Of a stretch of DNA of 64,000 bases, positions 29,234 through 61,700 are shown piece after piece (position 1 is the stretch's first letter; the number at the start of each line of letters is the position of its first letter). A program made the position numbers and the translations under genes. Source of the stretch: Sandaracinaceae bacterium (GTDB lineage Bacteria; Myxococcota_A; Polyangia; Polyangiales; Sandaracinaceae); NCBI GenBank assembly GCA_040218145.1, contig JAVJQK010000127.1, forward strand, positions 62,001-126,000, written 5' to 3'. The notes beneath the pieces were generated by a model. That model was not told the DNA's origin. It did no database searches and saw nothing but the letters and a program-made list of their open reading frames with translations.

Positions 29234-30091
29234 ATGCGCACGCTCAGCCTCAGCCTGTTCGCGCTCCTCGCCGCATGCGGCGCGGAGGAGACCGGAGACG
29301 TCCCCGAGCTGGCGACGGGATCCGGCACCGCGGCGGTCGCGCTCGAAGCGGAAGTCGAGGGGGAGGTCGAGGCGGAGGCCGCGACCCACGGCGGCACCGT
29401 CGTCGCGGTCGGCGGGCATCACGTCGAGGTCGTCGCGCACGACGAGGGTGTCATCGACGCGTTCCTTCTCGGCGAGGCGCCGCCGGTCGCGGAGACGCAG
29501 ATCACCGTGAGCGTCTCCGGCGACGACGGCGAGGTCCACCCGGTGCTGCTGACCTGGCACCCGAGCGAGGGCCGCTACCAGGGGCGCATGCACCACGCGC
29601 AGCCGATCCCCGGGCCGGTCGAGGTGGCGGTGACGATCGCGGGTGAGCGGGCGGAGGGGCGGGCGCCGCGCCTCCTCGTGCTGGCCCCCGAGGCGGTCGA
29701 GGCCGCGCCGACGCGCGCCCGGGTGGCGACGCGCGCCACCGGGTCGGACACGGAGCAGGACGCCGAAGAGGTCGAGGCGGCGCGCGAAGACGAGGCGCCG
29801 AGCGAGGCGGCTGCGGTGGCCCAGCCCGCGTCCCCCGCGGTCGTGATCCAGCCGGCGCCCGGCGTCGTCGCGGTGCAGAGGCCCGCGGAGCCTGGCGCGG
29901 TCGTGGTCCAGCGCCCGGCGCCGCCCGGCGCGACGGTGGTCGAACGTCGCGGCCCGGCGCGAGGCGGCATCCGCGTGCGCACGCGAGGTGGGGCGAGCGT
30001 CGCCCCGCCCGCCGCGCCGCCGGCCGCGTCGACGACACGGGGCACACGCCCGCGCGGCGGCATCCGCGTGCGCTCGCGAGACGACGACTGA
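29234..30091 (+). CDS. Lipoprotein with 'HGG' domain and Arg-Gly-rich tail
   Basis: 285 residues. Signal MRTLSLSLFALLAAC (Cys15); the ATG at 29234 is chosen for it over an earlier start at 29186. Residues about 45-150 (THGGTVVAVGGHHVEVV...HPSEGRYQGRMHHAQPI) resemble the small beta domain found in periplasmic metal-efflux proteins. The second half is low-complexity Pro/Ala/Val-rich and contains RGGIRVRTR and RGGIRVRSR, two copies of one short basic motif, the last at the very end. It precedes the two MG2-like giants on the same strand by 94 bp and may belong to the same operon. Confidence 0.7.
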   Translation: MRTLSLSLFALLAACGAEETGDVPELATGSGTAAVALEAEVEGEVEAEAATHGGTVVAVGGHHVEVVAHDEGVIDAFLLGEAPPVAETQITVSVSGDDGEVHPVLLTWHPSEGRYQGRMHHAQPIPGPVEVAVTIAGERAEGRAPRLLVLAPEAVEAAPTRARVATRATGSDTEQDAEEVEAAREDEAPSEAAAVAQPASPAVVIQPAPGVVAVQRPAEPGAVVVQRPAPPGATVVERRGPARGGIRVRTRGGASVAPPAAPPAASTTRGTRPRGGIRVRSRDDD

Positions 30092-30185
30092 CGCGGGGAG
30101 GTCTCGGACCGCCCCACGTTCACGCATCCATGCCGTGTGCTCACGCTTCGGGAACCTGCTCCGCCACCCGGTGTCAGCGGCTCTC

Positions 30186-43553: not shown

Positions 43554-46500
43554 ATGAGCGCAGAGAAGTGGCGGGCCTTCGGGATCGAGGTCGACGACCC
43601 CGAGGGCATCTCGGAGCAGTCGCTGTTCTACGTGGGGAGCTACCTGCTCCTCCTCGAACGCGTCGAGCGGGGGCTCGCGCAGCGGGCCGTGCGGTACGTC
43701 GTCGACGGCGTCGACGAGGACGTCCTGGGCGAGATGACAGCCCGGAGGTCCGAGTGCGTCTCCGCCCTGCGGCTCGGCCAGCACTTTGTCCCCGTCGAGC
43801 TCACGGCGGTCATCCGTCGCCTCGGCGACGCCCCCCGCGCGCTCCATCGACTCGGACGGCTCATCCACGCGATCGGTGGCGTGGGCCGGGTACGCGCAGG
43901 ATCGCAGGTCCCCGGCTGGTTCTGGGCGATCTACGACACAACGCGCGATGCGGGGCGGTCGCGGTTCGATGCGCCCGCGCTCGGCCGGCTGCTCGAGGCA
44001 GGTGGGGAAGAGCCGGGGCTGCTGATCGAGGTGCAGATCCCCGCCGCGGACCACTACCCCTCCCCCCTCGATGGAATGGCGAGCTTCCTGCGGGAGCACG
44101 AGGACGCGGTCAGAGACCGACTGTCGCGCTGGGAGCCAGCGAGGGCGCGCGCGGGCCTGCTCGAGCTGCTCGGTCTCCACCAGGTGGTGTTGCCGTCCCT
44201 CGTCGACCTGCTGGCGCGGGAAGCGACCTCGGGGACGAAGGTGAACCGGACGCTCGCGATGGCGCAGCTCGCCCGGCTCGGCGACGCGTCGCGGGCGCCG
44301 CTCGAGAGGCTGGCGAAGGAGGGCTCCGCTCCGACTCGGCGCGCGGCCTATCAGGCGCTCGACCAGCTCTACGGGGCCGCTGCGGCCCCCTTCCTCGCGT
44401 CCCTGGTCGAGGGTGAGCGGAGCGCGAAGAACCGGGACGTGCTTCGGGAGATCTGCGCGCGCCCCGCGGTGGAAGCGCCCGCGCCGTCGCTGCCGCCGCT
44501 CGCGCCCGTGCCGGAGCACGTCCCGCTGCCCGAGGGATACCTGGCCCATCTGCGCGCCGTCTTCGGCGGCGCCGGTGCCCGGCGGGCGCAGCACTGGGAG
44601 CGGATGCGGAAGCAAGGGATCGCTTACTACGAGTCGAACGAGCCGCCGCCGCCGCCGACCGAGGAGGCGCTGGAGGCGCTCGCGCAGAGGCTCGAGCGTG
44701 GTGGCAGCGGCGCGCCAGGTCCCGAGACGTGGCACGACGACAAGGCCCTCGGCGAGCTCGGCCGCTACGCGGGACTCCACCCCGTCCACGTGTGGCGTCT
44801 CCTCACCGAGGTCGGCAGAGGTCGCGGCGCTGTGCCCGTGTGGGCGGCTCGCCCGATCCTGAAGGCTTGCCGACGCGCCAACGAGGGGCGCCCCGACCTG
44901 CGCGAGCTGGCCCACGTCGCGACGTTCGACGGCGCGTCGCCGGACGCGATCGCCGTGGCTCAGCTCTCGGGGAGTCGGTGGGGCGGCGGGCTCGGCTATC
45001 GGCCCGAGGAGGCGTGGACCTTCTTCTCGGAGCATGCCGGCTTGCTCGAGGAGGCGCTCGAAGGGCGCGACCGGAGCCTTCACCACAACGCCGAGCTCTG
45101 GCAGGAGAACGCCTACTCGGTCCTGGCCGCTTTTCCGGAGCTCCCCTCGAAGGCGGCGGAGATCGCGTGGCGACACGCGCTGGGCACCGCGAAGCGTCCG
45201 AGACCCTGGGCGCGCGCCGCGCTCGCACGCGCCGAAGGAAAGACCCAGCGGATCGTGCGCGCGCTGGCGGACGGCAAGCAGGAGGTGCGCGCGACGGCGG
45301 CGGACTGGTTGGCGGAGCTCGGCGATCCTGCGGCCATCGAGGCGCTGAAGCAGGCGCTGCGGAAGGAGAAGCGTGAGATCCCCAAGGGGGCGATGTTCAA
45401 GGCGCTCGCCGCGCTGGGCGTGGATCTCGCTCCCTACCTCGATCGCGCGGCGCTACAGAAGGAAGCGCTGAAGAAGCTGAAGAACGGGCTCCCGCCGAAG
45501 CTCGCGTGGTTCCCCTTCGACGCGTTGCCCACCCCCACCTGGAAGAGCGACGGCGCGCCGGTCGCGATCGAGTCGCTCCAGTGGATGATCGTCAGCGCGC
45601 ACAAGCTGAAGACCCCCGTGCCATCGCCGCTGCTCCGTCTGTACGCGGAACGGTGGGGAGGGGCTGAGTCGCTGGGCGACTTCATGCTCGAGCAGTGGAT
45701 CGCCCGGGACGCGCGCCTGCCCAGCCGGGAGGAGGTGGAGCCGACCGTTCAGGCGCAGGCCGCGCAGTGGAAGGCCTGGGGACACAACCTGGACGACGCG
45801 GCCATCGAGGCGATGCTGCGCGCGGCGATGTCGCGCCCGGTCGGTTCGGCGCAGGCCGATCGCGGGATCCTGGCCTTCGCGACCGCGATGGGCGGACCGA
45901 GCGTCGCGGCCAAGGTCGAGCGCTACCTGAAAGACTGGTTCGGCAACCGTGCTCCGCAATGCAAGACGCTGCTCGAGCTGCTCGCGCATCGGAGCGACGC
46001 GCACTCGATCCAGGTGCTCCTCGCCACGGCGACGCGCTTCCGGACGAAGGGTATCCGGGAGGAGGCGCGGCAGCGGGTGGCGGAGCTCGCGGAGCGGCGC
46101 GGTTGGACGCCGGCGGAGCTTGCGGATCGCACCGTGCCCACAGCGGGCTTCGAGCTCGACGAGACGGACCGGCGGCCGGTGCTCAGCCTGGACCTGGGCC
46201 CGCGCGTCCTGCGCGTGTTGCTCGACGACGCGCTCGCGGTGGTGCTCGACAAGGGAGGCGGCAAGACGACGAAGACCTTCCCGAAGCCGCGCAAGGACGA
46301 CGACGCCGAGCTCGCAGCGGCCGCGAAGAAGACGTTCGCCGCGACCAAGAAGCAGGTGAAGCAGGTCGTGCGCATGCAGGGGGACCGGCTCTACGAGGCG
46401 ATGTGCACGGCGCAGCGTTGGGACGCCGAGACGTGGCGGGAACATCTGTGGCAGCACCCGATCGTGGGCCGGCTCTGCGAGCGGGTCGTGTGGGTGGTGC

Positions 46501-47108
46501 TCCGCGGGGAAGAAGTCGTCGGCGCCTTCCGGCCGCTCGGGGACGGCACCCTGACCGACGTCGACGACGAGCCGGTGACGCTGCCCGATGACGTCGAGGT
46601 GGCCGTCGCGCACGACAGCTGGCTCGGGGTGGAGCTCGCCGCGCGCTGGCGCGAGCACCTCGACGACTACGAGGTCACGACCCTCTTCCCGCAGCTCGGC
46701 GCCGAGCCGCTCGAGCTCACGGACGCGCAGCGCGACGAGGTCGTGCTCGACGAGCTCGAGGGCTACATCGTCGACGCCTTCACCCTCCGGGGGCAGCTCA
46801 TGAAGGACGGCTACACCCGCGGCGAGGCCTTCGACGGCGGCTGGTTCTACACCTACACGCGCGCGTTCCCCTCGATCGGGCTGACCGCGACAGTCGAGTT
46901 CAGTGGGAGCCCTCTCCCCGAGGAGAACCGCTCGGTCGCGCTCGGCGGCGTGCGGTTCCATCCCGCAGACGACGACGTGGAGCACGGCGCCGCCATCCCG
47001 CTGGGCGACGTGCCCCCCGTCCTGCTCACGGAGGTGCGCGAGCAGGTGCGGCGCGTGGCCGCGCTCGGGAGCGGCCGTGACCCCGACTGGGAGCTGAGGC
47101 TCGCATGA
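43554..47108 (+). CDS. DUF4132 (MolR/YehI-like) protein, copy 1
   Basis: 1,184 residues, close to E. coli YehI (about 1,200). No signal or transmembrane segment, so cytoplasmic. The N-terminal 580 residues are helical with HEAT-like pairs (MAQLARLGDASRAPLERL); around 575-610 comes VRATAADWLAELGDPAAIEA. The conserved second half has RFRTKGIREEARQ (about 828), FPKPRKDDD (about 908), FRPLGDGTLTDVDDEP (about 993) and EFSGSPLPEENRSV near the end, the DUF4132 region. Its ATG starts the six-gene overlapping operon. In E. coli the DUF4132 gene neighbours the same partners. Biochemical activity unknown. Confidence 0.85.
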   Translation: MSAEKWRAFGIEVDDPEGISEQSLFYVGSYLLLLERVERGLAQRAVRYVVDGVDEDVLGEMTARRSECVSALRLGQHFVPVELTAVIRRLGDAPRALHRLGRLIHAIGGVGRVRAGSQVPGWFWAIYDTTRDAGRSRFDAPALGRLLEAGGEEPGLLIEVQIPAADHYPSPLDGMASFLREHEDAVRDRLSRWEPARARAGLLELLGLHQVVLPSLVDLLAREATSGTKVNRTLAMAQLARLGDASRAPLERLAKEGSAPTRRAAYQALDQLYGAAAAPFLASLVEGERSAKNRDVLREICARPAVEAPAPSLPPLAPVPEHVPLPEGYLAHLRAVFGGAGARRAQHWERMRKQGIAYYESNEPPPPPTEEALEALAQRLERGGSGAPGPETWHDDKALGELGRYAGLHPVHVWRLLTEVGRGRGAVPVWAARPILKACRRANEGRPDLRELAHVATFDGASPDAIAVAQLSGSRWGGGLGYRPEEAWTFFSEHAGLLEEALEGRDRSLHHNAELWQENAYSVLAAFPELPSKAAEIAWRHALGTAKRPRPWARAALARAEGKTQRIVRALADGKQEVRATAADWLAELGDPAAIEALKQALRKEKREIPKGAMFKALAALGVDLAPYLDRAALQKEALKKLKNGLPPKLAWFPFDALPTPTWKSDGAPVAIESLQWMIVSAHKLKTPVPSPLLRLYAERWGGAESLGDFMLEQWIARDARLPSREEVEPTVQAQAAQWKAWGHNLDDAAIEAMLRAAMSRPVGSAQADRGILAFATAMGGPSVAAKVERYLKDWFGNRAPQCKTLLELLAHRSDAHSIQVLLATATRFRTKGIREEARQRVAELAERRGWTPAELADRTVPTAGFELDETDRRPVLSLDLGPRVLRVLLDDALAVVLDKGGGKTTKTFPKPRKDDDAELAAAAKKTFAATKKQVKQVVRMQGDRLYEAMCTAQRWDAETWREHLWQHPIVGRLCERVVWVVLRGEEVVGAFRPLGDGTLTDVDDEPVTLPDDVEVAVAHDSWLGVELAARWREHLDDYEVTTLFPQLGAEPLELTDAQRDEVVLDELEGYIVDAFTLRGQLMKDGYTRGEAFDGGWFYTYTRAFPSIGLTATVEFSGSPLPEENRSVALGGVRFHPADDDVEHGAAIPLGDVPPVLLTEVREQVRRVAALGSGRDPDWELRLA

Positions 47109-50100
47109 GCGCGGAGAAGTGGCGGAAGCTCGAGGTCGAGGTCGACAACCCCGAGGGGGTCTCCGACGAGGCCCTGTTCCAGCTCGCCAGCTACCTGCTG
47201 GCGCTCGATGGGCTCGAGCCTCGCCTCGGGCAGTCCGCGCTGCGCTTCGTGATCGACGGGGAGGACGAGGGGGTGCTCGACCGGGTGCGAGCGCGGCCGC
47301 GAGACTGCGCGGAGCGCCTGCGACGAGGCCGGTACACCGAGCTGCCCGACCGGCGCGGGTTCCTGCGAAGGACCAGCGCGCGCGGCGTCCTCCATCGCTT
47401 CGGGCGCTTCGAGCGAGCGACCGTGCAGTCCTCGACCGTGCACTCCTTCTTGGGTGCGAGCACGCCCGCGCTGCCCGACTGGCTCTGGCCCCTCGTCCAT
47501 TCCGGCGCCGTGGACGCTCCTACCCTCCACGCGGTGCTCGTTCATGCGCGCGAGGACGCCGCCCTCCTGATCGACTACTACGCGTCAGCTCCGCCGAACT
47601 ACGCGGCCATGGGACTCCGCTCGCTGCTCCAGTCCGAGCAACAGACGCTCGGCCAGCGCATCCGCGACGCTGCCAGCGCGCATTCGCGCGGCTGCTTCCT
47701 GGAGCTGGCGGTCAGGCACCAGGCGGTGCTCCCCCAGCTCTTCGAGCTCCTCGTCGAGGTGGCGACCGGGACCGCGGAGTCGACACGCCTGCAGGCCGTG
47801 GCGCTCCTCCGACGCCTCGAGCAGGACACGCTGGAGGCGCTGCTCACGCACGCGCGCACGGGCGACGCGGCGCGGCGGCTGGGCGCCTACTCGGCGCTGC
47901 GGGCGCTACATCCCGAAGCGCTGATGGAGGTGCTCGATGCGCTCGCCGAGGCGGAACGGGCGCAGAAGAACCTCGCCTTCCTCGAGCGGCTGCGCACACC
48001 GATCACGGATATGCCGTCGTTGCCGGAGCTGCCGCCGGTGCCCGACCGGGTGCCGCTCCCCGAGGGGTTTGGCGCCCGCGCCCGGGAGGCCTTCGACGCG
48101 AGCCATGTCGCGAAGCGCCGGCTCTACGAGCGGCGGAGAGCTTCCCCCTTCCCGCCGCTGGAGCCAGGGCCTCAGCCGGTCTCCGACGAAGCGCTCAGCG
48201 CGTTCCTGGAGCAGCTCGAGACCGGTGTGCCAGGCCAGAGCGGGAGTGCCCCGAGGGGGGGCGGCCCCCTCGGCGCCGACGTGCCTCGGGAGCTCGTGAA
48301 GCACGATGGGTTGGCACCGATTCACCTCTTTCGGCTCCTCCGCGCGTTCGGGCTGGCGTGCGACGATGGACGCTGGTTCGGTGCCGAGCTGGTGGGCGCC
48401 TTTCGCCGCGCGCACGGAGGGCGCCCCGATCTGCGGGAGCTCGCGCATCTCGCCGAGGCGGACGGTGTCCCCGCAGAGGTCCTCGCGCGGGCCTTCTTGA
48501 TGCAAGGAGAGGTGCAGGGCCCCGGCTACGCTCCCGAGGACGCCTGGACGTTCTTCGTCGGGCGCGAGCCGTTGCTGGCGGACGCGCTCACCCCGACGCC
48601 GGTGAGAGACCGCTACGGCCGCAGCTTTGGCACCGGATATGGCGCCGAGCTGCGCCGGGAGAACGCGTACGCGGTGCTCGGGTGCTTCCCGTCGATCCCG
48701 CCGCGCCTCGCGTCGACGGCGTGGGAGCACGCGCTCGGCAGCGCGAAGGCGGTGCGTGCGCTCGCGCAGGCGGCGCTGGCCACTTCGCCCGATCGGTTCG
48801 CGCGGGTGTGCGCAGCGCTCGAAGACGGCCAGCAGGAGGTGCGCGCGGTGGCCGCGGACTGGCTCGCCGACATCGGAGATCCGGCCGCGATCGGGCCTCT
48901 GTCCAAGGCCGTGCGGCGAGAGAAGCGCGAGCTCCCGAAGGGCGCGATGTTCCGCGCGCTCGAAGCACTCGGCGTCGACCTCGACCCGTACCTGGACCGC
49001 GAAGCGCTGAAGAAGGAGGCGCAGAAGAAGCTGAAGAAGGGCATCCCCGACAAGCTCGCATGGTTCCCCTTCGACGCGCTCCCGACGCCGCGCTGGAAGA
49101 GCGACGACGCGCCGGTCGCGCGCGAATCGCTCGAGTGGCTGCTGGTCACCGCGCACAAGCTGAAGTCGCCCCAGCCCTCGCCGCTCCTGCGCCTGTATGC
49201 GGAGCACTGGAGCGGGGCGGAGGAGCTGGGAGAGTTCGTGCTCGACGCCTGGATCGACCAGGACACGCGAGGCCCGTCTCGGGACGAGGTGGAGTCGGTG
49301 GCGAGGCGTCGGGCGAAGCAGACCGTGCAATGGACGGGGGAGCCCGAGCAGGAGGTGTTCGAGCGGACGATGAGGGAGCTGATCCTCCAGCCGCTCGGCT
49401 CCGCGCAGGCAGACCGCGGCGTCCTCGCGTTCCCGGCGGCGATGGGCGGAGCGCGCGTCGTGGAGACCGTCGAGGCGTACCTGAGGCGCTGGTATGGGTG
49501 GCGCGCGCCCCAGTGCAAGACGCTGATCCAGATGCTCGCCCAGCGAGATGACGGCCGCTCGATTCAGCTCCTGCTCGCCACCGCGACGCGGTTCCGGACG
49601 AAGGGCATCCGCAAGGAGGCCGAGAAGCGGGTAGTCGAGGTGGCCGAGCGCCGCGGATGGACCCCGGCCGAGCTCGCCGACCGGACCGCACCGACGGCTG
49701 GCTTCGAGCTGGACGAGACGGACGGGCGCCCGGTGCTGCGCCTCGACCTGGGGCCGCGGACCTTGCTCGCCCGACTCGACGCCGAGCTCTCCGTGGTCCT
49801 CGACAAGGGGGATGGGAAGGTCAGCAAGGCCTTCCCAAAGCCGCGTAAGGACGACGACCCGACGCTCGCGGCCGCCGCGAAGAGAGCCTTCAGCGCCGCG
49901 AAGAAACAAGCCAAGCAGACGGTGCAGATGCAGTCGACGCGCTTCTATGACGCGATGTGCGTCGGCCAGCGCTGGGACCTGGAGACCTGGCGCACGTATC
50001 TGAGGGGGCATCCCATCGTCGGTCGGCTCTGCGAGCGGCTCGTGTGGATCGCGATGCGCGGCGACACGCTGCTCTCCTCGTTTCGGCCGCTCGGCGACGG

Positions 50101-50665
50101 AACGCTGACCGACGTGGACGACGAGCCGCTCGAGCTGGCCGAAGATGTGGAGATCGCGCTCGCGCACCGGACGCTGGTCGGGGAGACGCTCGCCGTCCGA
50201 TGGCGCGCGCACCTCGCGGACTATGAGATCACGCCGCTGTTCCCGCAGTTCGGCGACGCGCCCTTCGAGCTCCCAGAGGCCGCGCGGGACGCGCTCGTGC
50301 TCGACGAGCTCGAGGGACACATGCTGCACGCGTTCACGCTCCGGGGGGCGCTGACCAAGCGGGGCTACACGCGGGGGTCGGCGGAGGACGGGGGCATCTT
50401 CCACACCTACCACCGGCACTTCCCCACCCTGCGACTCGCTGCGACGGTGGAGTTCAGCGGCAGCTCGCTCCCCGAGGAGAACCGGCCCGTCGCGCTCCTC
50501 GGAATCACCTTCTCGCGCAGCCGCGCCGACGACGGCACCGAAACCCCCGTGCCTCTCGGGGACGTACCGCCCATCCTGCTCGCGGAGGTCTACGAGCACG
50601 TGCGCGGGGCGGCGGAGCAGGGCTCGGGCAAGCATCCAGATTGGCAGGACCGTGTGTCCTGGTGA
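47105..50665 (+). CDS. DUF4132 (MolR/YehI-like) protein, copy 2
   Basis: 1,186 residues; its ATG overlaps the stop of copy 1 (ATGA). Same layout as copy 1: both begin MSAEKWR, share KLAWFPFDALPTP, ATRFRTKGIR, FPKPRKDDD, FRPLGDGTLTDVDDEP and SLPEENR-type blocks, and have nearly equal length. Similarity is high from about residue 560 to the end and clearly lower in the first half. This is a tandem duplication followed by divergence of the helical N-terminal part, which could be the partner- or target-binding side. Cytoplasmic. Its end overlaps the MoxR gene if that starts at GTG 50652. Confidence 0.85.
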   Translation: MSAEKWRKLEVEVDNPEGVSDEALFQLASYLLALDGLEPRLGQSALRFVIDGEDEGVLDRVRARPRDCAERLRRGRYTELPDRRGFLRRTSARGVLHRFGRFERATVQSSTVHSFLGASTPALPDWLWPLVHSGAVDAPTLHAVLVHAREDAALLIDYYASAPPNYAAMGLRSLLQSEQQTLGQRIRDAASAHSRGCFLELAVRHQAVLPQLFELLVEVATGTAESTRLQAVALLRRLEQDTLEALLTHARTGDAARRLGAYSALRALHPEALMEVLDALAEAERAQKNLAFLERLRTPITDMPSLPELPPVPDRVPLPEGFGARAREAFDASHVAKRRLYERRRASPFPPLEPGPQPVSDEALSAFLEQLETGVPGQSGSAPRGGGPLGADVPRELVKHDGLAPIHLFRLLRAFGLACDDGRWFGAELVGAFRRAHGGRPDLRELAHLAEADGVPAEVLARAFLMQGEVQGPGYAPEDAWTFFVGREPLLADALTPTPVRDRYGRSFGTGYGAELRRENAYAVLGCFPSIPPRLASTAWEHALGSAKAVRALAQAALATSPDRFARVCAALEDGQQEVRAVAADWLADIGDPAAIGPLSKAVRREKRELPKGAMFRALEALGVDLDPYLDREALKKEAQKKLKKGIPDKLAWFPFDALPTPRWKSDDAPVARESLEWLLVTAHKLKSPQPSPLLRLYAEHWSGAEELGEFVLDAWIDQDTRGPSRDEVESVARRRAKQTVQWTGEPEQEVFERTMRELILQPLGSAQADRGVLAFPAAMGGARVVETVEAYLRRWYGWRAPQCKTLIQMLAQRDDGRSIQLLLATATRFRTKGIRKEAEKRVVEVAERRGWTPAELADRTAPTAGFELDETDGRPVLRLDLGPRTLLARLDAELSVVLDKGDGKVSKAFPKPRKDDDPTLAAAAKRAFSAAKKQAKQTVQMQSTRFYDAMCVGQRWDLETWRTYLRGHPIVGRLCERLVWIAMRGDTLLSSFRPLGDGTLTDVDDEPLELAEDVEIALAHRTLVGETLAVRWRAHLADYEITPLFPQFGDAPFELPEAARDALVLDELEGHMLHAFTLRGALTKRGYTRGSAEDGGIFHTYHRHFPTLRLAATVEFSGSSLPEENRPVALLGITFSRSRADDGTETPVPLGDVPPILLAEVYEHVRGAAEQGSGKHPDWQDRVSW

Positions 50666-51797
50666 GGGCCTCTTGAAGACGAAGAAGAAGAAGTCCGGCG
50701 GCGACGCCTCCACCTCGCTCTTGCGCCTCCCGATGGAGCGGCGCTTTGCGCACGAGCTCGAAGCGCTGGAGGCCGAGGAGGGGCCCAGGCCGCCTGGCTG
50801 GCGCATGTCCCCGCGCGCGGTCCGCACCTTCATCGTCGGAGGCGAGGCGGGCGGTGTCGAGGTGCGCACGAAGTACTACGGAGCGCCCACGCTCGTGGAC
50901 CGCTGCATCGTCACCCTGATGAGCAACCGAGCGCTCCTGCTCGTGGGCGAGCCGGGGACGGCGAAGACCATGCTCTCCGAGCTCCTCTCGGCGGCGATCA
51001 GCGGGACGAGCCAGAACACCGTGCAAGGCAGCGCGGGCACGACCGAAGACCACATCAAGTACAGCTGGAACTACGCGATGCTGCTCGCGAAGGGGCCGTC
51101 GCGGGAGGCGCTCGTCCCGTCGCCGGTGTACCGCGGGCTCGAGCAAGGCCAGCTGGTGCGCTTCGAGGAGGTGACGCGCTGCCCGCCGGAGATCCAGGAC
51201 GCGCTCATCAGTGTGCTCAGCGACAAGGTCATCCAGGTGCCGGAGCTCGGTGACGACGCGAGCGTGTACGCGACGCGCGGCTTCAACGTCATCGCGACGG
51301 CCAACCTGCGAGACCGCGGCGTGCACGAGATGTCGAGCGCCCTGAAGCGGCGCTTCAACTTCGAGCTGGTCCCGCCGATCGCCAGCCTCGAGCTCGAGGT
51401 CCGGCTCGTGCGCGAGCAGACGGAGGAGCTCCTGCGCGAGTCGGAGGTGGAGGCGACGCTCCCCGAGGACGTGGTGGGCTTGCTCGTGACGAGCTTTCAG
51501 GAGCTGCGGAGCGGCAAGAGCGGGGACGGGAGACCGATCGACAAGCCGTCGACCGTGATGTCGACGGCGGAGGCGGTGGCGGTCGCCTTCGCGTCGGCTC
51601 TCGATGCGGCCTGGTTCGGCGATGGCACGCTCACGCCCGAGCACCTCGTGCGCCACCTCCGCGGCACCGTCACCAAGGACGGCGACCGCGATCAGGAGAA
51701 GGTCCGTCAGTACTTCGACGTGATCGTGAAGGCGCGCGGCAAGAAGGATCCCCTCTGGAAGCGCCTGTACGCTGCGCGCGATCAGCTCGACGAATGA
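50652..51797 (+). CDS. MoxR-family AAA+ ATPase (YehL-like)
   Basis: 381 residues from GTG 50652, or 374 from TTG 50673, which has a GAGGG seven nt upstream; the choice is open. Walker A GEPGTAKT is at 99-106, Walker B LVRFEEV at 168-174, where the usual Asp-Glu is Glu-Glu, sensor 1 in NVIATANLRD and an Arg-finger candidate in SSALKRRFNF. The 'GSAGTTEDHIKY' insert is typical of the group. Paired with a VWA protein two genes on, the usual MoxR-VWA partnership used to remodel or activate protein complexes. Last codons overlap the DUF5682 start (ATGA). Confidence 0.9.
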   Translation: MCPGEGLLKTKKKKSGGDASTSLLRLPMERRFAHELEALEAEEGPRPPGWRMSPRAVRTFIVGGEAGGVEVRTKYYGAPTLVDRCIVTLMSNRALLLVGEPGTAKTMLSELLSAAISGTSQNTVQGSAGTTEDHIKYSWNYAMLLAKGPSREALVPSPVYRGLEQGQLVRFEEVTRCPPEIQDALISVLSDKVIQVPELGDDASVYATRGFNVIATANLRDRGVHEMSSALKRRFNFELVPPIASLELEVRLVREQTEELLRESEVEATLPEDVVGLLVTSFQELRSGKSGDGRPIDKPSTVMSTAEAVAVAFASALDAAWFGDGTLTPEHLVRHLRGTVTKDGDRDQEKVRQYFDVIVKARGKKDPLWKRLYAARDQLDE

Positions 51798-54085
51798 ACG
51801 AGACCGAAGCGAGCGTGGCCGCGCTGAAGGCGGCCCTCGACGGGTCGCCCGTGACCTTCTTCGGCGTGCGTCACCACAGCCCGGTCTGCGCCCGCGGCGT
51901 GCGCGACTGGATCCGCGCGCGTCGACCCGCCGCAGTGCTCGTGGAGGCGCCGGCCGACGCGGAGGCGTCGATCCCGCTCCTCCTCGACGAGGCCACGGTC
52001 GCACCCGTCGCCCTCTACCTGCCGGCCGAGCGCGCGGCCGCCTACTATCCGCTCTGCGACTACTCTCCCGAGCTGGTCGCGCTGCGCGAGGGGCGGGCGG
52101 TCGGCGCGCAGCTCGGCTTCATCGACCTGCCGTACGCGCACCGCGCCCTCGGGCCACAGTCCCGACCCGTGTCGGCGCAGGACGAGGCGCACCTGGCCCG
52201 GAGCCGGTACGTGGCCGAGCTCGCCGCCCGCACCGGGTGTCGTGACCTCGACGAGCTCTGGGACCATCTCTTCGAGGAGGGCGCGCGGGCGCTCGATCCG
52301 GACGGGCTGCGGTGGCGCGTGGCCGTGTGGTGCCATCTCGCGCGCCTCGAGTACACGGACGCGGCGCTGGAAGCGGATGGGACGCTGGCGCGTGAGCGCG
52401 CGATGGCCTGGCACGTACGGCGGGCGATGGCGGCGCACCCGGGGGCGGAGATCCTCGTCGTGACGGGCGGCTTCCACGCCGTGCAGCTGCCCCATCTGAT
52501 GGACGCGCCCCTCGAGCCGCCGCCGGGAGGGGAGGGTGAGCACTACGTCATCCCCTACGGGTTCGCGCAGCTCGACGCGCTCGACGGCTATGCCTCGGGC
52601 GTGCCCGCGCCGGCGTTCTATCAACGGGTGTGGGAAGACCGCGCGGACGTCGCGGACCTCGTGGTCGAGGTCGGCCGCGAAGCCCGAGCGCGCGGCATGG
52701 CGGGCGCGGTCTCGGTCGCGGACGAGCTGGCCGCGGCGACGCAGGCGCGGCAGCTGGCTGCGCTCCGCGGGCACGCACATCCGACCCGCGAGGACGTGCG
52801 CGACGCGCTCCGAAGCTGCTTCGTCAAGGGTGAGGCCGACGGGATCATGGGGCTCGCGCGCGAGCTCTTCGCCGGCGACCGGGTAGGGCAGGTCCCGGCC
52901 TCGGCGGGGGTGCCGCCGCTGGTCGCAGACTTTCGAAGGCGCGCGGAGGCGTGCAAGCTCGAGCGGACGAGCACGCGCAGGCAGGCCGTCGTGCTCGAGA
53001 TCTATCGCAAGGGATCGCACCGCACGACGAGCCGGCTGCTGCACGCGCTCGATCTCCTCACCGTTCCCTACGCGGCGATGATCGACGGCCCCGATTTCAT
53101 CCGCGGCGTCGGTCTCGAGCGCCGCCGCGAGCGCTGGGAGCTCTACTGGACGCCGGCCGTGGAGGCGACGCTGATCGATCTCGCGCACACCGGCGGCACG
53201 CTCGAAGAGGCGTGCTGGGCTCGACTCCAGACGAAGCTCGCGGACGCCGAGGAGGCAGGCATGGGAGGCAGCCTCGCCGCCGCTACGCGACTGCTCGCCG
53301 AGGCGTGCCGCGTGGGTCTCGGGGACCGGCGCGCGTTGCTGCTCGATATCGTCGAGCGAGCGGCGCGGGAGGACGGCGGGGTGCCCTCTCTCGTGGCGGG
53401 GCTGCGTCAGATCGACCGCCTCGTCCGGGCGGGAGGCTCGCTCGACACCCGGGGCCTCGAGACCCTGCCCGAGCTGCGCGCCGTCGCCTACCGGCGCGTC
53501 TGCCTGGAGCTTCGGCAGCTCTCGAACCTGAATCCGACGGCGGCTGAGGAGGCGCTGGGCGCAGCGCTGACGCTACGCGAGCTGGTTCGTGAGTCCCCAG
53601 AGGTCTTCGCGCTCGCCCTCTTCGACGACGCGCTCGCCGCGATCACCGGGCGCGACCTCCCCGCGGTGCTCCGCGGCGGGGCGTGGGGCGTGCGCTTCTC
53701 GCTCGGGTCGGTGGACGAGCCGGAGCTCGCGGAGGCCCTCCGAGGGGCGGTCGACGGTGCGACCGACGCGCAGACGCGGGTGGCGTTCGTACGGGGGCTG
53801 CTCGTCGCGGCGAGGGACACAGCGTGGCGGCTGCCCGCGTTCATCGAGACGCTCGACGCGACCTTCGCGGAGTGGGACGGTGACACCTTCCTGCGCAGCC
53901 TGCCGGAGCTGCGCCTCGCGTTCGCGGAGCTGACCCCGCGCGAGATCGACCGCGTGGCGGAGGCGGTGGCGGCGCTCGGGCACGAGGACCTCGGTGGCCT
54001 CGTGATGATGGACGTGGCCGAAGGCGAGGTCGCCTTCAACACGCGGGTCGAGCAGGTCGCGACCGCCGCGCTGGAGGCGACATGA
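51794..54085 (+). CDS. DUF5682 family protein (YehM-like)
   Basis: 763 residues, much like E. coli YehM in length. It starts with VTFFGVRHHSPVCARGV and then PAAVLVEAPADAEAS, the DUF5682 signature. The His and Glu placement recalls TraB/EreA/ChaN-type enzymes, so a hydrolase activity is possible, but this is an inference. VVTGGFHAVQLP (about 219-230) would carry the next conserved His. The C-terminal half is helical. Cytoplasmic. Overlaps the genes on both sides by four bases, so it is made with the MoxR and VWA proteins. Confidence 0.85.
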   Translation: MNETEASVAALKAALDGSPVTFFGVRHHSPVCARGVRDWIRARRPAAVLVEAPADAEASIPLLLDEATVAPVALYLPAERAAAYYPLCDYSPELVALREGRAVGAQLGFIDLPYAHRALGPQSRPVSAQDEAHLARSRYVAELAARTGCRDLDELWDHLFEEGARALDPDGLRWRVAVWCHLARLEYTDAALEADGTLARERAMAWHVRRAMAAHPGAEILVVTGGFHAVQLPHLMDAPLEPPPGGEGEHYVIPYGFAQLDALDGYASGVPAPAFYQRVWEDRADVADLVVEVGREARARGMAGAVSVADELAAATQARQLAALRGHAHPTREDVRDALRSCFVKGEADGIMGLARELFAGDRVGQVPASAGVPPLVADFRRRAEACKLERTSTRRQAVVLEIYRKGSHRTTSRLLHALDLLTVPYAAMIDGPDFIRGVGLERRRERWELYWTPAVEATLIDLAHTGGTLEEACWARLQTKLADAEEAGMGGSLAAATRLLAEACRVGLGDRRALLLDIVERAAREDGGVPSLVAGLRQIDRLVRAGGSLDTRGLETLPELRAVAYRRVCLELRQLSNLNPTAAEEALGAALTLRELVRESPEVFALALFDDALAAITGRDLPAVLRGGAWGVRFSLGSVDEPELAEALRGAVDGATDAQTRVAFVRGLLVAARDTAWRLPAFIETLDATFAEWDGDTFLRSLPELRLAFAELTPREIDRVAEAVAALGHEDLGGLVMMDVAEGEVAFNTRVEQVATAALEAT

Positions 54086-55215
54086 GCGACGAGCGGCGCG
54101 CGCGCTGGCGGCTCGTGCTGGGGCGCTACGCCAAGCGACACCTGCCTGACGATGTGCTCTCGGCCACCGACGCGCGCGCGGGGCGGGCCCTCGACTACCT
54201 CTACGGTCGCGAGGGAGCCGGGCGTGGAGAGCTGCAGGCGGTCGGCGCGGATGGACGAGGAGGGGGCCTCGAACCGAGCGCGCTGACGATTCCGAGGTGG
54301 ATCGCGGAGGTGCGCGACCTGTTCCCGACCGACACCGTGCAACGCATCCAGCAGCACGCGCTCGAGCGGTACCGCCTCACCGGGTTGCTCGACGACCCCG
54401 AGACGTTGCGCGACGTGCGACCGAGCGTGGAGCTGCTCCAGACCCTCCTGGCCCTCAAGGATGACGCGAAGCCGGCGGTGCTGGCGCAGATCCGTCGCCT
54501 GGTCGATCGCGTCGTGGAGGAGCTCACCGAGCGGCTCTCTCGCGAGGTGCGCCAGGCGTTCTCGGGTCGGATCGACCGCTTCCGCAAGAGCCCTCTGAAG
54601 GTCGCCCAGAACTTCGACGCGCACCGCACCATCCGCGAGAACCTGAGGCGCTGGGATCCGGAGACGCAGCGGCTCCTGGTCGAGGCGCCCCGTTTCTTCG
54701 CCCGCGTGCGACGCGAGCTCCCCTGGCACGTGATCCTCTGCGTCGACCAGAGCGGGAGCATGGCGCCCTCCATCATCTACGCGGCGGTGATGGCGGGCAT
54801 CTTCGCGAAGCTCCCGGCTCTGCGCGTGAAGCTCGTGCTCTTCGACACCTCCGTCGTGGATCTGAGCGAGCAAGTCGACGATCCGACGAGCGTCATCCTC
54901 GGCGTGCAGCTCGGCGGCGGGACCAACATCGGCCAGGCCCTTCGCTACTGCGAGACGCTGGTCGAGGACCCACGCCGCACCGTGCTGGTGCTCGTGAGCG
55001 ACTTCGAGGAGGGCGGCTCGCCGCGGACCCTCCTGACGATCACGGCGCGCCTCGCGTCCGAAGGCGTCCGCCTCCTCGGCCTCGCGGCTCTGGATGAGGA
55101 GGGCACGCCGTTCTTCGATCACGGGATGGCGGAGCGGCTGGCCGCGGTGGGTATGGAGGTAGCGGCCATCACGCCACGACAGCTCGGACGGTGGCTGGCA
55201 GAGGTAGTGCGGTGA
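54082..55215 (+). CDS. VWA domain protein with intact MIDAS (YehP-like)
   Basis: 377 residues. The first 210 are helical. The C-terminal VWA domain has the full metal-ion site: DQSGS (222-226), Thr281 in LGGGTNIGQAL and Asp307 in VLVSDFEEGG, so Mg2+-dependent ligand binding is expected. CoxE-like VWA proteins act as substrate adaptors for MoxR ATPases. Cytoplasmic. ATG overlaps the DUF5682 stop; the stop overlaps the GTG of the SWIM gene (GTGA). Confidence 0.9.
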   Translation: MSDERRARWRLVLGRYAKRHLPDDVLSATDARAGRALDYLYGREGAGRGELQAVGADGRGGGLEPSALTIPRWIAEVRDLFPTDTVQRIQQHALERYRLTGLLDDPETLRDVRPSVELLQTLLALKDDAKPAVLAQIRRLVDRVVEELTERLSREVRQAFSGRIDRFRKSPLKVAQNFDAHRTIRENLRRWDPETQRLLVEAPRFFARVRRELPWHVILCVDQSGSMAPSIIYAAVMAGIFAKLPALRVKLVLFDTSVVDLSEQVDDPTSVILGVQLGGGTNIGQALRYCETLVEDPRRTVLVLVSDFEEGGSPRTLLTITARLASEGVRLLGLAALDEEGTPFFDHGMAERLAAVGMEVAAITPRQLGRWLAEVVR

Positions 55216-57260
55216 GCCTCAAACGCTCGCTCGAGGCGTACGACGAGGCCGCGCTCGCGACGCTCGCGAACAAGGGGCTCGTGCGCCGCGCGAAGAAGGA
55301 CCTCGAGCGGGGAGTCGTCGAGGAGGTCTCGATCGTCGAGGAGGAGGCGCGCGTGGCGCTCGACGGGCAGACCGTCACCCTCGACGCGCGCGGGCCCAGC
55401 CACGCTCGCTGTAGCTGTCCGGCGGCGGGCAGCTGTCGTCACATCTTGGCGGCCGTGCTCTGTCTCCGAGAGCGCTTCGCGTCGGAGACCGGGGGGGAAG
55501 AGACCGCGGGTGAAGGTCAGCTCGCGCTCGAGTTGCTCGCCCACCCGCTCGAGGCCGTGGTGAAGTGGGCGGGCGTGCGTGCGATGAAGAGCGCGGCCAG
55601 GATGGCGCGCCTCGACGTCTCCGAGATCGAGGAAGGCGCGTCGGTTCACGTCACTTTTCGCGATGGTCGCGAGGTGCGGTTCCTGGAGGGCGCGGGCCTC
55701 GACGACGCCCTCTACAAAGGCGCGAGCAGCCGGCGCGTCGCGTCCGTGGCGAGCGCACTGCTGGCGCTCCGGGCGCGCCACGGTCTCGCGGTGCCGGGCG
55801 CGGACGGACCCGAGGCGCTGCCCATGGTTTCCGGCGCCTTGCGCAGCCGCGCGGAGTGCGTCGCGACGGCGCGAGAGCGCTGCGCGCGGCTGATGGAGCT
55901 CGGTCTCGGCCGCCGCTCCGATACGAGCACCGACGGGCTGATCACGCTGTCGCTCTCCTGCGTGGCCGCGAACCTGCCGCGCCTCGCCGGCGCGCTGCGC
56001 GAGTGCGCGCGTGAGCTGCACCGGCTCGGCGCGCGGCAGCCCGACGCAGATTCCGCGCGCGCGTTCGACCGGATCGCCGCAGCCGACGCGTTGGCCCGCG
56101 CCCTCGACGTAGACACGCCGAGGGCGGATCTGATCGGCGTGCATCGGTCCGAGTACCACCCCCTGGGAGACGTCGAGTTGATGGGCCTGGGCGCGTGGCG
56201 CTTCGCATCCAGCCGCGGATACCGCGGCGTCACCGTCGCGTTCTTCTGTCCCGGCGATGGACGCGTTCGCACCTGGAGCGATGCGAGGCCTCAGGGGGTC
56301 GATCCGGCCTTCGACCCCGACGCTCGCTACCGCGGCGCGGCCTTGTGGGCAGGGCTGGGCCCACCGGCTCAGGCGTGTCGTCAGCGCTTCTCTCTCCGTG
56401 ATGCGCACGGCAATGAAGACGGCCGGCTCGGGGTCCGCGGCGGGACGGCGGCAGGCGCGGTGCGGGACAGCTCGCCGTTCGAGGTGGAGCTCGGCGATCG
56501 CGGTCACGGTTCCTGGGCGAGCCTGCGGTCGGCGGTCGCGAGGCACGTCCCGCTCGGCCTGCGTCGCGCGGCGGCCAACGACGCGCTCTACGTGTTGCGC
56601 GCCGTCGCGCTCGAGGCAGTGCGCTTCGACGAGATCCAGCAGGCGATGCTTGCAGACCTCGTCGACGCGGAGGGTGACGCCTTGACTCTGCACCTGAGCC
56701 ACGACCCCACCCACGAGCGTGCCGTCCGCTGGCTGGCCAGCAAGGCGCTGTCGAGCTTCCAGGGCCGGATGAGCTGGCTCGCTCGGGTTCAGCCCTACGG
56801 TGGCGCGCTGCGGGCGACGCCACTGGCGGTCTGGCTCGAGGACGGTCCAGCGCGCCTGATCAACCTCCACCTCGACGAGACCCCGGCCGAGAAGCTTCAG
56901 CTGCCTGCATGGAGACTCTGGCGGCAGGCGAGCAAGGCGGGGACCCGGACGCGACGTCTGCTCGTCGACAGGGCCGAGCGCGATCTGTCGCCTCCCCCGG
57001 CGTGGTCGGACGAGACCGAGCGCGCGGTGGATTGGCTCGAAGACGAGACGCTGGCCGCCGCTGAATCAGGTGTGGCGACGCGGCGCGATCCGGGGCGGCT
57101 CGAGGCCTCGATCGGCGAGCTGCGGCGCCGTGGGCTGACGCGGCTCGCAGAGCAGGGCGAGCGCTGGCGGACGGGCCGGACCGCTCCGGAGCTTCTCGCC
57201 CTCCGCTGGTCCATTGTCGTATATCGCCAGGCTGCTCTGCGCGTGGCGCTCGCCGACTGA
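55212..57260 (+). CDS. SWIM zinc-finger protein (YehQ-like)
   Basis: 682 residues from a GTG overlapping the VWA stop. Cys67, Cys69, Cys75 and His77 (RCSCPAAGSCRHILA) form the CxCx5CxH SWIM zinc finger, usually a nucleic-acid or protein-binding module. It is followed by a long alpha/beta region with no enzyme motif I can name. The equivalent gene in E. coli ends the same cluster. It is the last gene here, closed by a hairpin shared with the convergent barrel gene. Confidence 0.85.
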   Translation: MSLKRSLEAYDEAALATLANKGLVRRAKKDLERGVVEEVSIVEEEARVALDGQTVTLDARGPSHARCSCPAAGSCRHILAAVLCLRERFASETGGEETAGEGQLALELLAHPLEAVVKWAGVRAMKSAARMARLDVSEIEEGASVHVTFRDGREVRFLEGAGLDDALYKGASSRRVASVASALLALRARHGLAVPGADGPEALPMVSGALRSRAECVATARERCARLMELGLGRRSDTSTDGLITLSLSCVAANLPRLAGALRECARELHRLGARQPDADSARAFDRIAAADALARALDVDTPRADLIGVHRSEYHPLGDVELMGLGAWRFASSRGYRGVTVAFFCPGDGRVRTWSDARPQGVDPAFDPDARYRGAALWAGLGPPAQACRQRFSLRDAHGNEDGRLGVRGGTAAGAVRDSSPFEVELGDRGHGSWASLRSAVARHVPLGLRRAAANDALYVLRAVALEAVRFDEIQQAMLADLVDAEGDALTLHLSHDPTHERAVRWLASKALSSFQGRMSWLARVQPYGGALRATPLAVWLEDGPARLINLHLDETPAEKLQLPAWRLWRQASKAGTRTRRLLVDRAERDLSPPPAWSDETERAVDWLEDETLAAAESGVATRRDPGRLEASIGELRRRGLTRLAEQGERWRTGRTAPELLALRWSIVVYRQAALRVALAD

Positions 57261-60466: not shown

Positions 60467-60473
60467 GCTTCAG
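60463..60473. terminator. Small hairpin over stops of a convergent pair
   Basis: CTGA-GCT-TCAG contains the TGA of the MopE-like gene and the stop of the convergent lipoprotein gene. Only four base pairs, partly forced by two opposed TGA codons, so weak evidence. Confidence 0.2.
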
Positions 60474-61567
60474 GGGCACTCGGCGCGGGTGCCGAGACCG
60501 GCGAGGTCGGCGGAGCTCACCCACGCCCGCCCCGTCCACTCGGTGGCGGGATCGAAGGGATCGCTCGGGTTGGTGTCGCCCATGGTGAGCCCGCACTGCC
60601 TCGTCAGGACGTGATCGAGCGAGGACGGGGACGTGCCCCACTCGGTGCCCGGGTCCTCACCGACGCGCCCGAAGCTGTCGATCGGCGTCGCGTCCCCGTC
60701 GCAGTGGAGCGCGAGCGCGTCGTCGCCGTTGTGGTTCAGCGAGCCCGTCGTCTGGTCGCAGGAGGTGGAGACGTCGATGGACGTGTTGCAGATCACGTGC
60801 AGCGCGCCGGGCGCGACCGTACCCGTGAGCGGGATGCTCAAGAAGGTGGTGGCGCCGTTCGTGTAGCGCTGGATCTGACAGCGTCCGAGGTCGAAGGGCA
60901 TGCTCCCCAGGTTCTGGATCTCGAGCGCCTTGTTGTTGCCGCTCCCCTCGATGTACTCGGTGAAGAGCAGCTCGGGGGGCGCGAGCCCGGAGTCCGGGAG
61001 GCCCGTGTCGGGGAGGCCGGTGTCGGGCACGCCCGTGTCGGGCACGCCCGTGTCGTCGACGCCCGTGTCCCGCACGCCGGTGTCGCGTACGCCGGTGTCG
61101 ACGATCTCCCCGCCGTCCATGCCCGCGTCCATGCCCCCGTCGACGCCGCCGTCGAGCAGGTCCGGCACGCAGCGGCCGTCCGAGCAGGTCTCTCCCGCGC
61201 CGCACATCACGCCCACGCACGAGCCGGTCAGCGCCACGTCGATCCGTCGCTGCAGGCCCGGGGTGAAGCCGGCGTTCACCCGCCGCTCGACGACGAGGGT
61301 GCCCGCCTTCAGCGCGGTCACGGTGATCGTCACGGCCTCCGACGTGGAGTCCTTGGGCAAGACGGTGAGGCTGTGGGGCCACGCGCCCTGGATCGAGAAG
61401 GTCTGGTCCAGCATCGACCCGGACTCGCCCGCGACCTGAAAGCGCAGCGCGTCCACGTCGTCCGGCACGACCAGATCCGGGGAGGTGACCTCCACGAGGA
61501 GGCTGGTCTCGTCGGCGCAGCCAGCGAGCGCGCCGACCGTGAGCAAAGCGAGGAGGGAGGTACGCAT
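60470..61567 (-). CDS. Lamin-tail-domain lipoprotein with DTG repeats
   Basis: 365 residues from ATG 61567. Signal ends LLTVGALAGC (Cys17). Domain order: Ig-like beta part to about 120, a Cys-rich EGF-like bit (CVGVMCGAGETCSDGRC), a linker of eight DTGxx repeats, and a lamin-tail domain (LLFTEYIEGSGNNKALEIQN onward) to the end. Lamin-tail domains occur in exported bacterial proteins and nucleases; no nuclease is present here. Likely surface protein whose DTG linker spaces the domains. Confidence 0.8.
   Translation of the reverse strand: MRTSLLALLTVGALAGCADETSLLVEVTSPDLVVPDDVDALRFQVAGESGSMLDQTFSIQGAWPHSLTVLPKDSTSEAVTITVTALKAGTLVVERRVNAGFTPGLQRRIDVALTGSCVGVMCGAGETCSDGRCVPDLLDGGVDGGMDAGMDGGEIVDTGVRDTGVRDTGVDDTGVPDTGVPDTGLPDTGLPDSGLAPPELLFTEYIEGSGNNKALEIQNLGSMPFDLGRCQIQRYTNGATTFLSIPLTGTVAPGALHVICNTSIDVSTSCDQTTGSLNHNGDDALALHCDGDATPIDSFGRVGEDPGTEWGTSPSSLDHVLTRQCGLTMGDTNPSDPFDPATEWTGRAWVSSADLAGLGTRAECP
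60984..61101 (-). repeat. 15-bp tandem repeats encoding DTGxP
   Basis: About eight imperfect 15-nt units (GCCCGTGTCGGGCAC-like on the plus strand), coding DTGVR, DTGVD, DTGVP and DTGLP on the minus strand. In-frame, so length can change without breaking the protein. A polymorphic linker is likely. Confidence 0.75.
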
Positions 61568-61700
61568 GCGCGCCCATGCTGGCACAGGTGTGCGCGGATC
61601 GCAGCGCCTCGGGATCGGTCCCGGTGGCGCGCGTGGCTCGCCGGTCACGGAGCGCGATGCACCCTTCAGATCTGCCGGCGCGCGTCGTTTCGGCTCCCCC

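Follow-up and report, generated by a model that had tools for sequence, protein, structure and literature searches.

The question raised by the locus described here is whether six closely packed genes of a Sandaracinaceae bacterium encode one system, and what this system would do. They lie at 43554-57260 of the window, i.e. the whole stretch of 64,000 nucleotides (nt) that was analysed (G000:C127:62001-126000, from a draft genome of 11.06 Mb), and encode two DUF4132 proteins, a MoxR ATPase, a DUF5682 protein, a VWA protein and a SWIM zinc-finger protein. The six-gene set is confirmed as real and not due to chance, because the same set recurs across several phyla. The operon appears to be one machine composed of an ATP-driven remodeller, a predicted protein- or ester-cutting enzyme and sensor-like proteins with variable fronts. 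We assign a probability of about 0.4 to the reading that it is a fifth kind of MoxR-VWA system: DUF4132 and SWIM would recognise a trigger or sense DNA damage, and this would lead to the ATP-driven activation of a DUF5682 hydrolase.

Linkage of the six genes

A motif scan for the DUF5682 family over 84,980 species genomes gave 415 confirmed places, the best 80 of which were examined; the scan used one motif and is biased to the DUF5682 branch of the window. Linkage was counted on 104 DUF5682 loci flanked on each side by at least 3 kb. MoxR adjoins DUF5682 in 103 of the 104 and VWA is present in all of them, while SWIM is found in 89 and DUF4132 in 76. Linkage had been named beforehand as the refuting test of the original prediction: the families are linked, not dispersed. 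With plasmid and E. coli loci counted in, by far the commonest order is DUF4132 (mostly one to three copies, up to five)-MoxR-DUF5682-VWA-SWIM, which is kept in Actinobacteria, myxobacteria, Acidimicrobiia, Thermoanaerobaculia and Burkholderiales. Plasmids also carry the set, with an altered gene order. A plasmid of Iodobacter (L038, 7234-20882) carries every member of the set; a transposase gene lies between its two DUF4132 genes, and a type I restriction-modification system is adjacent.

In another branch the order is SWIM-DUF5691-MoxR-DUF5682-VWA (SWIM or VWA being unannotated in one locus each), i.e. DUF5691 takes the place of DUF4132 in some loci and DUF5682 is retained. Since this branch keeps MoxR, DUF5682 and VWA, the large protein is exchangeable: the core of the set is MoxR, DUF5682, VWA and usually SWIM, plus an exchangeable large protein. 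DUF5691-type loci of Deinococcus and Hymenobacter display small proteins of unassigned family between MoxR and DUF5682 (L230, 11798-12034; L231, 11362-11973). No sixth universal partner emerged from the clusters of flanking open reading frames (ORFs), which mostly correspond to genus-level synteny.

DUF5682 and VWA_CoxE are often fused into one protein (fusions checked with Pfam). Judging from these fusions and the near-invariant linkage to MoxR, the MoxR-VWA pair most likely has DUF5682 as its partner or client. The genome of the window itself contains two further MoxR-DUF5682-VWA loci, on C11 (L035) and C96 (L036), with other layouts: a DUF5682::VWA fusion, and VWA upstream of MoxR. It also contains, on C98 (L037, 5980-9735), an orphan DUF4132 gene encoding HEAT repeats, without MoxR nearby.

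Family assignments and gene junctions

The six ORFs lie on the same strand at exactly the coordinates first claimed (Table 1), and the codon-position GC of all six is of the coding type. The families proposed for them were upheld by Pfam profile searches: DUF4132 in both large proteins (E 7e-40 and 1e-36), AAA_5/MoxR-type (E 2e-35), DUF5682 in the 763-residue protein (E 4e-102) and VWA_CoxE (E 4e-51), the latter with the metal ion-dependent adhesion site (MIDAS) motif DQSGS, GGGT, VSD in its sequence. The SWIM match is weak, E 4e-4, barely above the family cut-off. HEAT repeats are found in both DUF4132 proteins, over the Pfam cut-off in protein 1 only.

The claim that all five junctions overlap stands for four of them, at 4 nt with plausible starts: DUF4132-1/DUF4132-2 (47105-47108), MoxR/DUF5682 (51794-51797), DUF5682/VWA (54082-54085) and VWA/SWIM. 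This last overlap is of 4 nt with GTG 55212, which corresponds in alignment to the E. coli YehQ start, and of 25 nt with GTG 55191. The remaining junction, DUF4132-2/MoxR, is a 14-nt overlap with GTG 50652 but may be a short gap, if the in-frame TTG 50673 is used.

DUF5682 as a TraB/TIKI-like protein

The model of DUF5682 made with AlphaFold has a mean predicted local distance difference test score (pLDDT) of 88.3. Its best structural matches, over residues ~1-240, are 8bqs_DQ, 8b6h_DQ and 7w5z_E, each a 'TraB family protein' (Z 9.7-9.9, 187-189 residues); the next over the same domain is HopBA1 (5t09, Z 7.9, 154 residues), which belongs to the TIKI superfamily (PMC6254334). A profile of this N-domain aligned with hhalign to 27 TraB sequences gave a probability of 97.1 (E 6e-11) with the motifs in register, and one of 84% with the ChaN profile. 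The control profiles, MoxR and VWA, remained below 1%, and the erythromycin esterase profile, built on five sequences only, gave no match (0.9%). A search of the PDB by sequence retrieved no relative of DUF5682, and a viral structure library nothing significant, although a marseillevirus TraB family protein shows up in that search. The DUF5682 Pfam model in turn weakly matches short proteins in other genomes; the one examined is a typical TraB by its motifs (GTAHVS, VELC, RDxxL, VGAAHV).

Two His, two Glu and a basic residue make up the active site of the superfamily as published (PMC6254334; PMC7979712). DUF5682 carries both His, one Glu and the Arg, in the pattern of a first His, a following Glu, a basic residue and a second His within GxxH. 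In 28 diverse DUF5682 sequences H27, E51, E93, D111, R200, E201, M204, G225 and H228 are invariant; among 125 sequences H27 is found in 124 of 124 (one gap) and E51, R200 and H228 in all 125. The Arg-His spacing, 28 (R200-H228), equals that of R261-H289 in EreC (PMC7979712). The relationship of the DUF5682 N-domain to the TraB/TIKI hydrolases is thus distant but well supported by sequence profiles, by the model and by the invariant residues, and the link to this superfamily is new here. DUF5682 would cut a peptide or an ester bond by means of these predicted active-site residues.

Constant and variable parts of DUF4132

The two DUF4132 paralogues of the window are 24-45% identical over amino acids (aa) 1-500 and 48-78% over aa 601-1184, and their profile aligns with most DUF4132 proteins of other families only across the last ~430 residues. 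The same gradient is observed in Lentzea. In E. coli, alleles were compared in eight strains in detail and by counts over 5426 genomes. Within a paralogue class the identity is 81-100% from about residue 701 or 771 onward (in one class, one pair is at 74% over 701-770) and 80-93% over the first 70 residues, to which Pfam assigns WGR; between these two regions it is far lower, down to 31%, and one allele pair diverges mainly at residues 491-700. Alleles that are almost the same at the C-terminus may share just 30-70% identity ahead of it. The constant segment is covered to at least 80% in 5274 of the 5426 genomes. Three variable segments reach this coverage in only 618, 709 and 403 of them, the third nearly always at 99% or more: the variable parts fall into discrete allele classes. 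One of these alleles is present in E. coli Nissle 1917.

DUF4132 therefore looks like a constant-plus-variable sensor or adaptor, whose layout suggests that the variable front would fit recognition and the constant back coupling.

The constant part, modelled by AF2 with a mean pLDDT of 94.2 (protein 1, aa 690-1184), includes a core with the invariant polar residues H968, R993, H1020, D1038 and Q1047 (protein 1 numbering). We claim no fold for this core, since the Foldseek/VIA matches were confined to the HEAT part and to a YugN-like domain at the C-terminus (2r5x, Z 8.7) and the middle was barely covered. The invariant polar residues are what DUF4132 would be expected to show if it were itself the effector, with the TraB-like domain of DUF5682 as a non-catalytic module that senses the trigger by binding e.g. 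a metal or haem. ChaN, whose profile resembles that of DUF5682 as said above, binds haem with the same fold (PMC7979712). We nevertheless find this arrangement very doubtful, given that the catalytic-type His/Glu/Arg/His are invariant in 125 DUF5682 sequences and that loci without DUF4132, or with DUF5691 instead, keep DUF5682.

The yeh locus of E. coli

The yeh locus has the same five families as the window in the same order, with tandem DUF4132 genes in both. Over the parts aligned by BLAST, the identities between window and E. coli are 47% for MoxR (363 positions), 45% for VWA, 35% for SWIM (N-terminal 103 aa), 29% for DUF5682 and 27% for DUF4132 (C-terminal part). The original prediction equated the window order with that of yehI, yehL, yehM, yehP and yehQ. 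The order holds, but between yehI and yehL E. coli has yehK and a gap, and its genes do not all overlap. The other DUF4132 copies of E. coli carry WGR, and the locus is core in the species with members often broken; it comprises two to four DUF4132 genes in the strains examined.

In K-12 (ER3413) the annotation gives the upstream DUF4132 gene a frameshift and an internal stop (L222, 6196-9991), and yehQ has a stop at codon 615 of 666 (L222, 18822-20822); annotation and direct translation agree on those internal stops that were checked. These two lesions are a possible reason for the lack of a known K-12 phenotype. Other strains have broken yehI, yehM or DUF4132 genes, and further strains have intact copies. 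ST131 strains harbour a resistance transposon inside the DUF4132 region (PMC9334617). On an IncF plasmid (NZ_CP103756; L039, 9176-20394) a yeh locus, apparently derived from the chromosome, is found near IS26 copies and CTX-M-15. The ratios of non-synonymous to synonymous substitution rates (dN/dS) are 0.19 for yehI, 0.14 for yehM, 0.11 for yehQ, 0.067 for yehP and 0.042 for yehL, compared with 0.02-0.03 for metG and btsR. All yeh genes are under purifying selection, which is weaker in DUF4132. The open-access papers searched gave no established function for the YehL subfamily and no paper that treats the set as one system.

That MoxR and VWA are the most conserved members, and that the locus sits at one site in 97% of E. 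coli genomes, would also be expected of an assembly or maturation chaperone. MoxR and VWA would then serve a housekeeping complex by inserting or remodelling one of its cofactors or subunits, in the manner of CoxD/CoxE or NirQ/NorQ, with DUF4132, DUF5682 and SWIM as dedicated scaffolds. The VWA protein is indeed of the VWA_CoxE type, other MoxR subfamilies mature enzymes (PMC3893208) and molR is cited as linked to molybdate use (PMC8533742). However, no client enzyme gene is consistently linked, the distribution is patchy (DUF5682 is above the cut-off in 36 of 189 genomes of the phylum), members are broken in most E. coli strains examined and DUF4132 is unusually variable. A chaperone of this kind seems rather unlikely to us.

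Regulation and DNA damage

Of 40 DUF4132 proteins taken from other genomes, 17 carry WGR, a domain known from PARP-type proteins that often stands at the start of DUF4132. The orphan DUF4132 protein of C98 has a zf-PARP-like C-terminal stretch (E 6e-8, under the family cut-off). A DUF4132 operon is induced on DdrO depletion and molR has been described as LexA-regulated (PMC8533742). A LexA-like site with one core mismatch lies ahead of the first E. coli DUF4132 gene in 7/7 strains examined; the patterns tried gave none ahead of the window operon. The WGR and sub-threshold zf-PARP matches, the DdrO/LexA reports and the conserved LexA-like site together point towards DNA damage or foreign DNA as the trigger.

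The same observations would suit a DNA-damage response module that is not a conflict system, in which WGR- or SWIM-type proteins would attach to broken DNA, and the MoxR-VWA-DUF5682 core would clear away or remodel proteins at the lesion. Yet the DUF4132 proteins of the window lack WGR, no LexA-like site ahead of the operon was seen with the patterns tried, and a generic repair function would not lead one to expect N-terminal alleles that differ from strain to strain; we regard such a module as unlikely.

Conflict, stress or defence

A conflict or stress-response system had been suggested from the outset. Strain variation of DUF4132, WGR, carriage on plasmids and the LexA/DdrO control described in the literature fit a conflict or DNA-damage role, though indirectly. 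A conflict or stress role is supported, if not demonstrated. The set is carried by plasmids, one copy adjoining a type I restriction system; it is core and fixed in E. coli and patchy in the phylum. The core status in E. coli speaks against a typical accessory defence island, and the window neighbours scanned (formate-tetrahydrofolate (THF) ligase, disulphide oxidoreductase, ABC ATPase and a porin-like protein) include no defence genes. PADLOC 2023 gave no system match, only weak partial ones (HEAT, AAA, and aa 15-98 of the SWIM protein to the candidate PDC-S62). An accessory anti-phage island thus finds no support in the fixed core site in E. coli, in the window neighbours scanned or in PADLOC. 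Viral carriage was also rejected, none of 26 pattern stretches being a relative. A 'Bacteriophage sp.' record (MT835988.1, 12858-13931) encodes a YehL-type MoxR relative with 49% identity; the record has no annotation and may be a bacterial contig.

Proposed mechanism

The original prediction had DUF4132, DUF5682 and SWIM as targets or effectors. This can be sharpened, from sequence and models, to DUF5682 as a predicted hydrolase and DUF4132 as sensor- or adaptor-like. In the fifth kind of MoxR-VWA system proposed here, DUF4132 (variable solenoid N-terminus, constant C-terminal module) and SWIM would recognise a trigger, most probably damaged or foreign nucleic acid or a linked protein, and the constant DUF4132 module would relay this recognition state to the core. 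MoxR, for which the MIDAS-bearing VWA protein would serve as an adaptor, would then use ATP to remodel or release DUF5682, as known MoxR-VWA pairs and the DUF5682::VWA fusions suggest. DUF5682 would act on a cellular target, hydrolysing a peptide or ester bond by way of His27/Glu51/His228 with Arg200, and the output would be a stress or conflict response.

Several observations count against this proposal. The yeh locus is core, being present in 5285 of 5426 E. coli genomes (97%), occupies a fixed site between metG and btsR, and its yehI, yehM and yehQ are under purifying selection (dN/dS 0.11-0.19). At DUF5682 position 24 the second Glu of Ere and RRSP (EreC E47, RRSP E3900) is replaced by G or P; the TraB consensus likewise has G there. 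The window protein falls below the Pfam TraB cut-off (PF01963); as it matched only the DUF5682 model we do not file it in that family and call it a distant relative only. Foldseek alone gave no match at E < 0.001 for the DUF5682 model, and Z 8-10 is only moderately over the background for such models. Pfam finds no WGR in the window DUF4132 proteins, and a variable solenoid may diverge even where recognition is not selected for. Finally, the open-access papers searched gave no phenotype, enzyme activity or complex formation for the set.

A more speculative extension concerns recognition from the core genome. Tandem DUF4132 would be a strain-specific repertoire of sensors, variable but built on one shared constant module, that acts on a MoxR-VWA switch and thereby sets free a TraB/TIKI-type protease. 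The yeh locus would then serve innate immunity or kin/invader discrimination and be largely disabled in K-12. We consider this improbable as it stands.

The yeh operon is found in ~97% of sequenced E. coli genomes and YehL is a named MoxR subfamily. The TraB/TIKI-like identification of DUF5682 names candidate catalytic residues, the constant/variable layout of DUF4132 marks the exchangeable part, and the broken K-12 copies indicate the kind of strain fit for phenotype work.

Features of the window

Table 1. Genes of the six-gene operon and domains of their products, in window coordinates.
Feature	Coordinates	Strand	Remarks
DUF4132 protein 1, 1184 aa	43554..47108	+	divergent N-terminal part; HEAT repeats ~aa 565-618; conserved C-terminal module from ~aa 740
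Pfam DUF4132 core, protein 1, aa 903-1087	46260..46814	+	Pfam match
DUF4132 protein 2, 1186 aa	47105..50665	+	tandem paralogue of protein 1; ORF and Pfam
Pfam DUF4132 core, protein 2, aa 904-1088	49814..50368	+	Pfam match
MoxR AAA+ ATPase, YehL type	50652..51797	+	start GTG 50652 or TTG 50673; 47% identity to E. coli YehL
AAA_5 domain of MoxR	50934..51356	+	Walker A GEPGTAKT; Walker-B-like VRFEE
DUF5682 protein, 763 aa	51794..54085	+	TraB/TIKI-like domain and helical repeat domain
TraB/TIKI-superfamily-like domain of DUF5682, ~aa 15-240	51836..52513	+	H27, E51, R200, H228
VWA_CoxE protein, 377 aa	54082..55215	+	MIDAS pattern DQSGS...GGGT...VSD; 45% identity to E. coli YehP
SWIM zinc-finger protein, YehQ type	55212..57260	+	longest ORF from 55191; SWIM motif CSCPAAGSCRH within 55371-55466

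Elsewhere in the window, a 1502-aa protein (34865-39373) gave weak macroglobulin (MG4, bMG3) and carboxypeptidase-regulatory-like matches and is adjoined by a very large ORF of 1626 aa (29988-34868); a protein with a lamin-tail (LTD) domain is encoded at 60470-61648.

Comparison with known systems

The YehL subfamily is one of seven named among MoxR ATPases (PMC3893208). It has the same ATPase and the same neighbours as the window, and no difference was found for the ATPase: the window MoxR is close to YehL over its full length, has DUF4132, DUF5682, VWA_CoxE and SWIM beside it in one operon, and belongs to this subfamily. CoxD-CoxE likewise combines a MoxR ATPase with a CoxE-type VWA protein; unlike CoxD-CoxE, the set has no CO dehydrogenase or other client enzyme linked, and three added families.

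With the TIKI/TraB/Ere/ChaN superfamily (TraB, TIKI, EreC, RRSP, HopBA1), DUF5682 has in common the predicted fold, the TraB profile match and the His, Glu, Arg and His. It differs from it by a long fused helical domain, by its tie to MoxR-VWA, by the absence of the second Glu of Ere/RRSP and by its place outside Pfam TraB.

MoxR proteins that have VWA partners work as remodelling factors (PMC3893208). The MoxR-vWA ternary systems (Kaur et al. 2020, PMC7159879) have the same MoxR and vWA core pair, a distinctive third component and extra, variable parts. Their third components are VMAP, iSTAND, FtsH or a beta-propeller; that of the window is the TraB/TIKI-like DUF5682. No VMAP, iSTAND, FtsH or beta-propeller Pfam domain was found in the six window proteins (a bpMoxR match was under the cut-off), and DUF4132, DUF5682, yeh and SWIM all go unmentioned in the main text of PMC7159879. 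Because no such third component was found in the six proteins, we liken the set to these systems without filing it as one of them. A new class of MoxR-VWA system, marked by its TraB/TIKI-like third component, describes it better than any of the four classes of Kaur et al.

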